From Sneathiella aquimaris (lineage in GTDB: Bacteria > Pseudomonadota > Alphaproteobacteria > Sneathiellales > Sneathiellaceae), in the NCBI RefSeq assembly GCF_026409565.1, contig NZ_CP112881.1:2093501-2157500 (forward strand): a DNA stretch of 64,000 nt, read 5' to 3'. Position numbers and translations under genes: made by a program. Positions 3,985-45,247 of the stretch are shown here, one piece after another. Position 1 is the stretch's first letter, and every line of letters starts with the position of its first letter. The notes beneath the pieces are model-generated. The model had not been told where the DNA came from, did no database searches, and worked only from the letters and a program-made list of their open reading frames with translations.

Positions 3985-5092
3985 ATGCGCGCCGAACATC
4001 AGGCCGTTGTTGATGAAATCAAGCAGGCATTAGGACTGCTGAGGAGGCATCTTTGACTGGGAAAACGCGACAAGACGCCTCGAAGAATTAAACTCGCTTG
4101 TTGAAGATCCTGATCTTTGGAACGACTCGTCCAAAGCACAGGCTTTGATGCGGGAACGAACCAATCTGGATACCGCCATTACCGCCTATAACCGAATTGT
4201 ACAGGATCTGGACGATACGGTAGAGCTGATGGAGCTTTCAGAGATGGAGGACGACGAAGAAACTCTTGGCGAAGCGGCTGAAGCCCTGCGTGAGTTGCAG
4301 GTTGAGGTGGATAAACGACGCCTCGAGAGTATGCTTTCCGGTGAAGTGGACGGAAACGACTGCTATCTTGAAATCCATGCTGGGGCGGGGGGAACCGAGT
4401 CTCAGGATTGGACCCAGATTTTGCTGCGTATGTATATGCGTTGGGCGGAACAGCATGGCTGTAAGGTTAAAACACTTGAAGAAAGTGCGGGCGAAGAGGC
4501 GGGCCTCAAGTCCGTAACGATCGAGATTTCCGGTGAGAATGCCTACGGATGGCTGAAAACGGAATCTGGTGTTCACCGGCTTGTCAGGATATCTCCGTTT
4601 GATTCTAATGCGCGTCGCCATACCAGCTTTTCCTCGGTCGGTGTTTTTCCTGTGATCGATGACGATATTGACATCGAAATTGAAGAAAAAGATCTGCGTA
4701 TTGATACATATCGCGCGTCTGGCGCCGGTGGACAGCACGTGAACAGAACCGAGTCGGCGATCCGGATTACGCATATTCCGACAAATGTTGTGGTTCAATG
4801 CCAAAACGACCGTTCACAGCACAAAAACAAGGCCTCTGCCATGAAAATGCTGAAGTCTCGTTTATATGAGTTGGAACTTCAAAAACGTGAAGAAGCGGCA
4901 CAGGAAACCCGAGGTCAGCAAACAGATATTGGTTGGGGGCATCAGATCCGATCTTATGTGCTTCACCCCTATCAAATGGTCAAGGATTTGAGAACCGGTG
5001 TCGAAAAAGGCAACGCGCAGGGTGTTCTGGATGGCGATCTGGATGATTATCTTGCCGCCGCGTTATCCCAACGGGTAGGCGACGGAGAGTAA
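3985..5092 (+). CDS. prfB: peptide chain release factor 2, programmed +1 frameshift
   Basis: RF2 reads UGA and UAA stop codons and releases the finished peptide. The gene is in two frames. Residues 1-23 run from ATG 3985 to CTT at 4051-4053, followed by an in-frame TGA at 4054-4056. A +1 slip then continues with GAC at 4055. An AGGAGG element at 4042-4047 sits three bases before CTT, the classic geometry of the autoregulatory prfB shift. The joined product is 368 residues. It has the RF2 anticodon-like SPF tripeptide at 203-205 and GGQ at 248-250, matching E. coli positions within two residues. An in-frame ATG at 3979 is an alternative start; the MRAE start resembles other alphaproteobacterial RF2 proteins. 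Confidence 0.96.
4042..4056 (+). promoter_or_regulatory. prfB +1 frameshift signal
   Basis: An internal Shine-Dalgarno AGGAGG, a three-base spacer, CTT and then the recoded stop TGA followed by C. When RF2 is scarce, termination at this TGA is slow and the ribosome slips from CTT to TTT, restoring the main frame. All elements are visible in the sequence. Confidence 0.95.
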
Positions 5093-41466: not shown

Positions 41467-42720
41467 GTGCAAAAACCAGAAGGCATTATCGTAGGGGGAG
41501 GGCTCGTTGGTTTGACGTTGGCCCTCGCCTTGCACCAAAAAGGATATAAATGCCGCATTTATGAGACCGTTCCTGAACTATTACCGCTTGGTGTCGGGAT
41601 TAACCTTCTTCCGCATTCCGTCCAAAATCTGGCGAAACTGGGTTTATTGGACGCCCTTAAAAAGGTTGCGATCGAAACATCCAGTCTCAGCTATTATACC
41701 GAAGATGGGAAAACAATCTGGAGCGAACCCAGAGGCTTGGCCGCCGGTTATGACGTCCCTCAGTTTTCCATACATCGCGGCGATTTTCATATGATCCTGT
41801 TGGCGGCAGTCAAAGAACGCCTGGGCGAAGACTGCCTGTTTATGGATCACCGTTTCAGTCGTTATGAACAGGATGGCGACGGTGTAACGGCCTATTTCAC
41901 AAACCATGCGGGTACCCAGGAACAGCAAACAGTCCATGCTGACTATCTGGTTGGCGCAGATGGCATCAATTCCCGTTTACGTAAGATATTGTATCCTGAT
42001 GAAGGACCGCCGCACTATTCCGGTCAAATGTTATGGCGCGGAGTGACAGAAATGGCGCCCTTCAAGGACGGGAAATCCATGTTCATGGCGGGACATAATG
42101 ATTTGAAACTCGTCGCTTATCCGATCCGGGCGGAAAGTGCGGCGCGTGGAAAATCCTATATTAACTGGATCGCAGAACGGCGGATCCCGTCTGATTTAGC
42201 GGGACGGCAGGCTGATTGGAATGCAGAAGGCCTGTTATCAGAGTTCAAATTTGATTTTGACTCGTGGGATCTTGGTTGGCTGGACGTTAACGCATTATTT
42301 GATAACGCAATTTCCATTCACAAATTTCCCATGATTGACCGGGACCCAATTCCGAAATGGAGCTTTGACAGGATCACCCTGATGGGTGATGCGGCCCATG
42401 CCATGTATCCGAATGGATCCAACGGAGTGTCTCAGGGCGTACTGGACGCCATGGAGTTTGTTTCCCTATTGCAAAAGGGCGGAAACATTACCGATATTCT
42501 GACACAATATGAAGGTAATCGGCGCCCGCATACAACACGCATCAGTCTTGCCAATCGGGAGACAGGGCCGGAAAAGGTCATGGAAATGGTGAAAGACGCC
42601 TGTACCGGAGACTGCGCGGACACGCATACCTGTATTCCGGCCGACAAACTGGAAGAGGTTGCGACAGCGTATAAAAAACTTGCTGGATTTGATAAGGAGA
42701 GCTTGAAAAAAGCCCTTTAA
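41467..42720 (+). CDS. FAD-dependent aromatic-type monooxygenase
   Basis: A 417-residue class A flavoprotein monooxygenase. The N-terminal FAD motif is GGGLVGL, the DG motif is GADGINSR, and the second FAD motif is GDAAHAMYP with D308. Relatives hydroxylate salicylate-type or other ring compounds with NAD(P)H. The start is GTG 41467 with GGGAGG upstream. The C-terminus has a cluster of cysteines and histidines (CTGDCADTHTC) not typical of the family. It overlaps the converging GNAT gene by four bases. Confidence 0.85.
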   Translation: MQKPEGIIVGGGLVGLTLALALHQKGYKCRIYETVPELLPLGVGINLLPHSVQNLAKLGLLDALKKVAIETSSLSYYTEDGKTIWSEPRGLAAGYDVPQFSIHRGDFHMILLAAVKERLGEDCLFMDHRFSRYEQDGDGVTAYFTNHAGTQEQQTVHADYLVGADGINSRLRKILYPDEGPPHYSGQMLWRGVTEMAPFKDGKSMFMAGHNDLKLVAYPIRAESAARGKSYINWIAERRIPSDLAGRQADWNAEGLLSEFKFDFDSWDLGWLDVNALFDNAISIHKFPMIDRDPIPKWSFDRITLMGDAAHAMYPNGSNGVSQGVLDAMEFVSLLQKGGNITDILTQYEGNRRPHTTRISLANRETGPEKVMEMVKDACTGDCADTHTCIPADKLEEVATAYKKLAGFDKESLKKAL

Positions 42721-43169
42721 AGGGTTTTGAACATGCAGACGCGCGGTTGCCTATCCAGACCCTGCGCTTTTTCCTGTTGACGAATTTCCAAAAGCGCGGG
42801 CCACGCCGCGGATGGCGTAAAAACTGTATATCCCATGCTCTCATAAAAAGGGGCGTTGAAAGGTATAAATTCATAGGTCGTCAGGGTTATCTTTTGATAG
42901 CCCTGATCCCTGGCCCATTTTTCTGATAGTCCAAGCAGTTGTTTTCCAATTCCCTGCCGCATATATCGGCGTAAAACTGAGATTTCCTTAAGGTGCGCCT
43001 GACCGTCAATTGACTTCACAAAAGCAAACCCAATAGGCTTGTCGGCTGCATCGCAGGCAACAAGCAGCAGGCACTCTTTTTCAAGTCCAATCGAGTAGGC
43101 ATCAGAATTAACCGGCAGGTCAGCAACGTTTTCAAGGCCATATGCACGTAAAGCTTCCCCTGCATCCAT
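42717..43169 (-). CDS. GNAT acetyltransferase with unclear start
   Basis: At least 150 residues of a GNAT (HLKEISVLRRYMRQGIGKQLL, NAPFYESMGY). The first ordinary start codon, ATG 43169, falls inside the first helix. Upstream in the same frame the sequence reads YRNAKKQDCVEISAIE, which matches the usual GNAT opening (I/Y-R-x-A...), but no ATG, GTG or TTG occurs before the stop further up. An ATT at 43226 is the only plausible candidate. The gene may use a rare start, or may have lost its start. It follows the FMN reductase gene. Confidence 0.75.
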   Translation of the reverse strand: MDAGEALRAYGLENVADLPVNSDAYSIGLEKECLLLVACDAADKPIGFAFVKSIDGQAHLKEISVLRRYMRQGIGKQLLGLSEKWARDQGYQKITLTTYEFIPFNAPFYESMGYTVFTPSAAWPALLEIRQQEKAQGLDRQPRVCMFKTL

Positions 43170-43228
43170 CTCAATTGCCGAAATTTCGACACAATCCTGC
43201 TTTTTAGCATTTCTATAAAGGAAAATGA

Positions 43229-43834
43229 TTACATTCCATTTTTATATTTTTTCAGATTTTGGTTCTTCTCGCGAACCGGCTTCAACGCTATTGCGGTATC
43301 AACCAGAAATCCTAGAGAATAATTAAGCCGCTCGGTTAGTTCCAGATCCAGACTATTCGGCGGTGTATCTGCAAAAAGCTTTGTCACATTTCGTAAAATC
43401 ATGTGATCGGGTAGCCACATCAGCATGTTGTTTTTATATCCGCTCATCCGTAGTTCAGCAACAGGATAGGCGCCGCCCATACCAGAACTAATTCCGATCA
43501 ACTGACAGGGTTTATGGGCCAGTTCACCCTTGTCGCACATCAATAGGAAGTTTTTAAGATGAGGAGGGGCCATTCCAGCCCATTCAGGAACCACAAAAAC
43601 AAATCCATCACACTCAGACAACTTACGTGAAAGCGGCAACCAGTTTTGACTAACCGGACTATTGCTATCCCATTTGTCTTCAGTCCATAAAGGAAGGTCC
43701 AGCAGACGCAAATCAAAAATCTCTGTATCGCAATCCAAATGAGTCCGGTGCAATAAACCATCAACGTAATGAGATACTCGGGAAGACTCAGAATTTTCCC
43801 TGATACTTCCAATTACTATACCAATTTTGATCAT
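43229..43834 (-). CDS. NADPH-dependent FMN reductase-like flavoprotein
   Basis: A 201-residue flavodoxin-fold protein. It opens KIGIVIGSIRENSES, which binds the FMN phosphate, and has the VVPEWAGMAPPHLKNFLL segment around the isoalloxazine. Such enzymes reduce quinones, azo compounds or free flavin. It lies downstream of a DUF1330 gene that is divergent from a LysR gene. Confidence 0.85.
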   Translation of the reverse strand: MIKIGIVIGSIRENSESSRVSHYVDGLLHRTHLDCDTEIFDLRLLDLPLWTEDKWDSNSPVSQNWLPLSRKLSECDGFVFVVPEWAGMAPPHLKNFLLMCDKGELAHKPCQLIGISSGMGGAYPVAELRMSGYKNNMLMWLPDHMILRNVTKLFADTPPNSLDLELTERLNYSLGFLVDTAIALKPVREKNQNLKKYKNGM

Positions 43835-43957: not shown

Positions 43958-44251
43958 TTATTTTAAGGCAGGAAGGGCTAAAATAGTCGAACTTCCGGCC
44001 CCATTTCTTAAGGCATGAACCGGGGCAAGGTCTGGATCCTGGCGCCACGCACGCGCATGGTCAATTGATGGAAATTCGAGGATTGCAATAACATCCGGTA
44101 TTTCACCAGTCGCTTCCAACGCTTCAGGAGCAGGAAGCCCGCCAAGTACTTTTCCCTGATGTTTCGCCAGGGCGTCCGACGACACTTTTTTATACTCATT
44201 CATTTTATCCGGATGTTTTACAGAAATAAGCGCGATGAATTGTACTGACAT
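43958..44251 (-). CDS. DUF1330 domain protein
   Basis: A 97-residue dimeric alpha-beta barrel-type protein (FIALISVKHPDKMNEY, VLGGLPAPEALE, AILEFPSIDHARAW) matching DUF1330. These are often small proteins of unknown function next to oxidoreductases. It is divergent from the LysR gene and likely regulated by it. Confidence 0.82.
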   Translation of the reverse strand: MSVQFIALISVKHPDKMNEYKKVSSDALAKHQGKVLGGLPAPEALEATGEIPDVIAILEFPSIDHARAWRQDPDLAPVHALRNGAGSSTILALPALK

Positions 44252-44336
44252 TTCAAAAACCTTTAATTGTGGAAGTTGTTGCTTTTTATCTAGCCAGCAT
44301 CGACTTGATAATAAATGCTAAACATTGCGAAAAATC

Positions 44337-44352
44337 TGTGCAAAAATGCACA
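44337..44352. promoter_or_regulatory. 16-bp inverted repeat at the LysR start
   Basis: TGTGCA-AAAA-TGCACA, perfect six-base arms, ending one base before the preferred LysR start codon and 85 bases upstream of the divergent DUF1330 gene. It is a candidate autoregulatory or bidirectional operator. Confidence 0.45.
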
Positions 44353-44353
44353 T

Positions 44354-45247
44354 ATGGAAGATTGGGATAGTTACAAATTTATACTGGCTGTGGGGCGGCA
44401 CGGTAGCCTGAGCGCTGCAGCGCGATCGCTTTCTGTGAACCACACGACGGTTTCCAGAAGAATTACCGCCATTGAAGAAAAAATGAATGTTCGGTTATTC
44501 GACAGAATCGCTAAAAATTTTGTGCCAACAGATGCCGGACATAAAGCGATTGCCTCGTCTGAGCGCATTGAGAAGGAAGTCTTTGCGTTGCGCCGTGAAA
44601 TCGCATCTAAAGACTCGGAAATTGCAGGTCCCTTACAAATTACGGTCGCTGATCAGCTATATCAGACCTATATCGCAGATATCGTGCATTCCTTTATGGC
44701 CCTATATCCTCAAATCGACATCACCGTCCGAACGGCGAGCGAGAATTTCAATCTTAGCAAAAGGGAAGCCGACGTTGCCATCCGGGTCGGAGATCAACCG
44801 GACACCCACTTATTTGGTCGCCGCATTATGCGGCAAAATCGGTGCTTTTATATCTCTGACACTTACTTGTCCCATTTGCAAGCAACAGATGGGACAATAG
44901 ACAAATCAACAAACATAAAGTTTATCAATCATGTAGAATGGTCCTCAACTATTTTAGATGAACTGAAAAAAGTATATCCAGGCTGCAATGAAATTCTTAA
45001 AACAGATGCGATGATTGTTCTTCTGACCGCTGTTAAAAAGGGGGTCGGTGTTAGCCGATTGCCCTGTTTTTTAGGGGAGAGTGATCCCGATCTTGTACAG
45101 TTACCCGGCTGCACGCCCACAAAAAATAAGGATATTTGGGCGCTCACCCATCCCGATCTAAAGAATGTGTCGCGGATCCGGTTGTTTATGCAATTCGTGT
45201 CTGACAGATTGAAAAATCACACCGACATTTTCTTGGGAAAGGGATGA
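44354..45247 (+). CDS. LysR family transcriptional regulator
   Basis: About 297 residues. A winged HTH (WDSYKFILAVGRHGSLSAAARSL..., residues 3-60) is followed by a LysR substrate-binding domain. An in-frame ATG at 44315 would add 13 residues, but MEDWDSYKFILAV aligns with the normal start of this subgroup. It is divergent from the DUF1330-FMN reductase genes, the usual arrangement for a LysR regulator and its target. Confidence 0.88.
   Translation: MEDWDSYKFILAVGRHGSLSAAARSLSVNHTTVSRRITAIEEKMNVRLFDRIAKNFVPTDAGHKAIASSERIEKEVFALRREIASKDSEIAGPLQITVADQLYQTYIADIVHSFMALYPQIDITVRTASENFNLSKREADVAIRVGDQPDTHLFGRRIMRQNRCFYISDTYLSHLQATDGTIDKSTNIKFINHVEWSSTILDELKKVYPGCNEILKTDAMIVLLTAVKKGVGVSRLPCFLGESDPDLVQLPGCTPTKNKDIWALTHPDLKNVSRIRLFMQFVSDRLKNHTDIFLGKG

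Follow-up and report, generated by a model that had tools for sequence, protein, structure and literature searches.

A putative GNAT gene of Sneathiella aquimaris with no ordinary start codon ahead of its N-terminus, and a candidate coupled start at AUC or AUU

The stretch of DNA analysed here (64 kb of the Sneathiella aquimaris genome, referred to below as the window) contains a locus in which a divergent LysR-type regulator gene is followed by genes for a DUF1330 protein, an FMN reductase and a GNAT protein, and then by a convergent FAD monooxygenase gene (Table 1). The GNAT and monooxygenase genes share 4 nt at their 3' ends (42717-42720), and insertion of GNAT between reductase and monooxygenase left hardly any spacer.

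Table 1. Features of the GNAT locus, in window coordinates.
Feature	Position	Strand	Remark
LysR-type regulator gene	44315..45247	+	divergent
DUF1330 gene	43958..44251	-	first in the DUF1330 - FMN reductase - GNAT run
NADPH-dependent FMN reductase gene	43229..43834	-	gene preceding GNAT; ends ATG TAA, stop 43231-43229
GGA, weak Shine-Dalgarno-like triplet	43235..43237	-	5 nt before ATC, 8 nt before ATT
Putative GNAT acetyltransferase gene (PA2271-like), from ATC 43229	42717..43229	-	170 codons + stop
N-terminal stretch ahead of the first ordinary start	43170..43229	-	β1 and first half of α1
Candidate start 1, ATC	43227..43229	-	takes last A of upstream TAA (TAATC); start use inferred
Candidate start 2, ATT	43224..43226	-	2 nt past upstream stop; start use inferred
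First ordinary in-frame start, ATG	43167..43169	-	inside helix α1; probably just an internal Met, as in G004
FAD-dependent monooxygenase gene	41467..42720	+	convergent; overlaps GNAT end by 4 nt

The GNAT frame is open from 43241 to a stop ending at 42717 (174 codons), and is bounded upstream by a TAA at 43244-43242. The first-pass annotation held that this frame has no ATG, GTG or TTG upstream of 43169, and reading it back to the TAA confirms this: ATG 43169 is the first such codon. The residues encoded ahead of it are YRNAKKQDCVEISAIE, as the annotation gave them, and ATC 43229 and ATT 43226 are in frame where it placed them. The junction reads TAATCATTTTC, and the GNAT frame after the ATG TAA of the reductase reads ATC ATT TTC CTT TAT AGA. 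Two more ATT codons, at 43184 and 43175, occur within the first helix; codons of this kind are thus frequent in the N-terminal stretch, and their presence is by itself no proof of a start.

The protein passes the cut-offs of three Pfam GNAT models, scoring 48.1 bits against Acetyltransf_1 (cut-off 20.7). A structure model built from 42 aligned sequences has a mean pLDDT of 95.0, and places β1 at residues 4-7 and α1 at residues 12-28, where residue 1 is the ATC codon at 43229 and ATG 43169 encodes residue 21. This bears out the suggestion that the upstream residues correspond to the first GNAT strand and helix, since in the model β1 and half of α1 precede ATG 43169. The full predicted fold, including its N-terminal strand, would be present only if translation starts upstream of this ATG. 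The nearest solved protein is PA2271 (PDB 9cr5), which gives a profile match with E 9.2e-45 over positions 2-169, aligned from PA2271 residue 3. It is also the best fold match of the model (TM-score 0.86-0.91), at 26-29% identity. We found no paper in the open-access literature searched that names PA2271 together with acetyltransferase. The window protein keeps 27 of 30 conserved columns, and the three substitutions (L to I, V to I, F to Y) are conservative. Judged on its sequence, the gene is an intact putative GNAT acetyltransferase that has gained no stop or frameshift.

An FMN reductase was matched in 18 of 24 Sneathiella genomes (in L051 as a fragment only), and 15 of these 18 loci also have the convergent monooxygenase. 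A GNAT gene follows the reductase in only two, the window genome and G004, and is absent from the other 16. It was therefore either inserted at the window/G004 junction or survived only there. The G004 gene has the same neighbours and is 48% identical; it begins with an ATG located 4 nt past the stop of the reductase and includes the N-terminus. A comparison of orthologues had been proposed in the first-pass annotation as a check on the start, and in G004 the start is upstream of the equivalent of 43169, the Met being kept but internal. A true start at ATG 43169, giving a 150-residue enzyme, has in its favour that this is the longest ORF with an ordinary start, but it would lose β1 and half of α1. 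In view of the fold model and the G004 orthologue we regard it as very improbable, and it was rejected.

For a base rate, homologous frames were collected. A scan of genome contigs with a single protein as query gave 27 stretches and no relatives, and in viral contigs 12 stretches fitted the pattern, again with no relatives; a second genome-contig scan, made with A2 on one genome per species (GTDB r220), gave 125 relatives, of which the best 80 were kept. A plasmid search gave 46 records (30 of them listed), all with identities under 60%. There were 126 distinct homologous frames, of which three were left out because their N-terminus was unaligned. Among the 123 counted, 118 have an ATG, GTG or TTG in the open frame upstream of a conserved Arg (L132 solely through an ATG 67 codons upstream, within the preceding gene). 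The five that do not are the window, L107, L147, L180 and L027, the last a weak paralogue.

The absence could be an artefact, with one wrong or missing base near 43224-43239 masking an ATG. A single base change would turn ATC or ATT into an ordinary start, and there is an ATG at 43239 that sits one base out of the GNAT frame. Against this, the genome is a single contig, 100% complete and 0.01 contaminated, which are genome-wide figures and do not refer to this base; likewise, long ORFs cover 91.5% of the 64 kb, a figure for the window as a whole and not for this base. We consider an error improbable.

Both candidate codons adjoin the stop of the preceding gene, a point absent from the first-pass annotation. 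The ATC in TAATC makes a one-base overlap like that in TAATG, and the distances from the reductase stop on the same strand, -1 nt for ATC and +2 nt for ATT, fall within the range of about -8 to +6 nt described as indicative of termination-reinitiation (PMC10666635). The explanation that we favour, and think probable from the sequence, is that an intact GNAT is translated at low yield from AUC 43229 or AUU 43226 by termination-reinitiation at the reductase stop. A ribosome ending the reductase would halt within one or two bases of both codons, so that contact between stop and start would supply the GNAT start with a ribosome. The poor codon and the weak Shine-Dalgarno sequence would hold GNAT output well under that of the reductase, and IF3 would restrain initiation at AUC or AUU. 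The Shine-Dalgarno duplex energy is -3.3 kcal/mol, compared with -5.0 for G004 and -8.2 for infC of the same genome.

These elements, namely initiation at AUC or AUU, coupling to the reductase, low yield and restraint by IF3, are ones that we infer with the help of work on other systems. In E. coli, N-terminomics has indicated initiation at ATT (ribE) and at an upstream ATC (PMC13245402). AUU reaches about 0.3% of AUG (Hecht 2017, as cited in PMC10666635), and a low GNAT yield is therefore expected. Codons of this kind are disfavoured by IF3, and reinitiation declines when more IF3 is supplied, to a lesser degree in the presence of a Shine-Dalgarno sequence (PMC2268962); GNAT output should consequently depend on IF3. 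The three options offered in the first-pass annotation were an AUU start, a recent loss of the start and a base error. Comparison favours the rare start, with the amendment that AUC 43229 and AUU 43226 are equally good candidates.

A serious rival is that the start was lost recently: an ATG at the junction has mutated, and the gene is silent or nearly so, in early decay, stops having not yet gathered. G004 has an ATG at its junction, and ATC/ATT at the junction occurs in one genome only, so that the conservation among close relatives that is a trait of IF3-restrained starts is not seen here. GNAT is absent from the other 16 reductase loci, and is thus dispensable. The window copy also evolves faster: its branch length is 0.77, compared with 0.46 for G004, its mean identity ranks second lowest of 42, and in 32 of 40 comparisons the other sequences are nearer to G004 than to it. 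The long branch and low identity are compatible with relaxed selection. Over the 18 codons before ATG 43169, window and G004 score 1.11 in frame and 0.39 and -1.67 off frame, and their mismatches by codon position (0.78/0.44/0.50) have no third-position excess; codon usage gives a weak signal, scoring 0.12 for the extension against a gene mean of 0.19, with 5 of the 24 other N-terminal extensions listed in the window scoring higher. The coding signal of these codons is weak, with no clear signature in the comparison with G004. On the other hand, the entire frame is intact with its conserved columns kept, and relatives keep junctions of this kind without an ordinary start, as described below. 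We regard start loss as rather unlikely.

Relatives were sought in the family of Oricola indica, which we take to be Rhizobiaceae, where 43 of 297 genomes match. The GNAT rows read number 47, consisting of 42 of these 43 (all but G647, a fragment interrupted by an in-frame TGA), L108, L145 and three trpC-linked rows. DUF1330 is directly upstream in 41 of the 47. Of these 41, 13 lack any ordinary start from the junction up to the conserved Arg, and 12 of the 13 have a CTG that overlaps the upstream stop (CTGA). The 12 include L107, L132 and L147 from the GTDB r220 scan, where GNAT lies behind DUF1330 with a GG[CTG]A overlap and no ordinary start before the Arg.

In 21 rows the base preceding the stop falls in the GNAT frame, as CTGA (15), GTGA (3), TTGA (2) or CTAA (1). 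The twelve CTGA rows without an ordinary start up to the Arg are L107, L132, L147, L196, L198, L200, L201, L203, L207, L210, L212 and L223, where L210 is counted although its CTG sits 24 codons before the Arg; the other three CTGA rows (L139, L197, L202) were left out because they also have an in-frame ordinary start. The thirteenth row, L204, likewise has no ordinary start, but is outside the NTGA register. In L195, L199, L217 and L224, the sole ordinary start in this stretch is the overlap's own TTG or GTG. The starting letter in NTGA is the last base of the last upstream codon, with GGC, GCC or AGC giving CUG, GGG or GTG giving GUG, and GGT or GCT giving UUG. A second possible CTG occurs at -7 in L107, L147, L196, L200 and L203, and in L132 alone the CTG of CTGA is the only near-cognate codon (CTG, ATT, ATC, ATA) between junction and Arg. 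The best Shine-Dalgarno duplex in L207 abuts the CTG and has little meaning.

With initiation confined to ordinary starts, the N-terminus would fall 29-83 codons past the Arg in eight of the CTGA proteins and 3-13 codons past it in three others. In the eight, the 33 codons that precede any ordinary start have a mean BLOSUM62 score of 2.65 in frame, compared with 0.65 and 0.77 off frame; this exceeds the value for a body stretch of the same genes (1.17), and mismatches by codon position (0.31/0.34/0.53) have a third-position excess. Two genes served as controls: an ordinary start lies within -12 to +2 codons of the N-terminus for DUF1330 in all 41 loci (in 39 it is ATG, right at the Met), and near the N-terminus for the FMN reductase in all 18.

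A second set of relatives is linked to trpC; of four genomes searched in one family, three gave a match. Each of the three carries ATA at the junction, 12 and 15 codons ahead of the Arg, and lacks an ordinary start there. In L234 an ATG and a TTG occur 31-32 codons before the Arg, upstream of a junction context that it shares with L180 and L233. The upstream gene is trpC by Pfam (IGPS) in L180, the only one on which Pfam was run, and for L234 we infer the same from this shared context. In a tree built from 89 rows, chosen by hand from those available, the ATA rows form one clade. The CTG label changes nine times, with at least four changes forced by well-supported branches, so CTG has been gained or lost several times. 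The window GNAT is outside both groups, which therefore back the reading of a rare start in the window by analogy only. As far as sequence comparison goes, the CTGA and ATA junctions make an odd start appear less exceptional for the PA2271-like family.

In the window genus, infC starts with ATA (ATA GCN CG) behind AGGAGA in all 23 loci (L052-L074, including L070), and the Sneathiella lineage thus tolerates such rare starts. As a side observation, the L180 junction (about 1462-1473) is AAAGGATAAGATCCATAG, with the same context in L233 and L234, and its ATAGCTC is similar to ATAGCTCG at the infC start, a likeness that may be due to chance.

Elsewhere the family occurs behind DUF1330 or trpC as a gene of its own, with variable spacing. 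This speaks against a further possibility, a frameshift origin of GNAT, either out of the reductase or starting at ATG 43239. From the latter, the sequence reads ATG GAA TGT AAT CAT TTT C, and a +1 slip at TTT C would reach the GNAT frame; by eye, there is no canonical X XXY YYZ heptamer that would lead from the reductase into the GNAT frame past the 43244 stop. Judged by eye on the sequence, we find such an origin hardly credible and rejected it.

A start outside AUG, GUG and UUG is not in itself new. infC, which encodes IF3, has a conserved start outside this set, AUU in E. coli and ATC in Streptomyces (PMC5472188), and resembles the window GNAT in this respect. It differs in that its Shine-Dalgarno sequence (AGGAGA) is strong and its autoregulation is known, whereas the Shine-Dalgarno sequence of the window GNAT is weak. 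In Streptomyces, the GTC start of sigR is held down by IF3, as tested by experiment (PMC5472188). As with the window GNAT, a rare start there is proposed to set a low protein ratio against a partner; the codon is a different one, and sigR has an experimental basis where the window GNAT is known here from its sequence. Gene pairs coupled through ATGA or TAATG overlaps (PMC6728339, PMC10666635) likewise have stop and start a few bases apart on one strand, but the start would be AUC or AUU in the window and CUG or AUA in its relatives. The main text of PMC6728339 has no 'CTG' string. Both non-canonical starts and coupled overlaps have been described before, each on its own. In the open-access literature searched, with subscription papers mostly outside it, we found neither a recurring gene pair whose start junction is CUGA nor a family repeatedly lacking ordinary starts at such junctions.

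We suggest, as a tentative and somewhat doubtful generalization, that PA2271-like GNATs located behind the stop of another gene have repeatedly taken CUG (in CUGA), AUA or AUC/AUU, and that these starts are kept as an IF3-sensitive coupled device giving a low protein ratio and are not there by chance. The DUF1330-GNAT pairs offer a natural experiment: because the last upstream codon sets the start letter at NTGA, they could be used to compare across species what CUG initiation costs in coupled translation and how it is used.

Gene prediction relies on AUG, GUG and UUG as the sole starts (PMC5472188), and genes like the window GNAT are therefore easily truncated or called broken. Elsewhere in the window, prfB (RF2; 3985-5092, plus strand; NCBIfam TIGR00020, 520.5 bits) has the classical programmed +1 frameshift, AGGAGG CAT CTT TGA C after 23 codons, with the shift site CTT TGA C at 4051-4057; the mechanical ORF list gives this gene only from ATG 4145.
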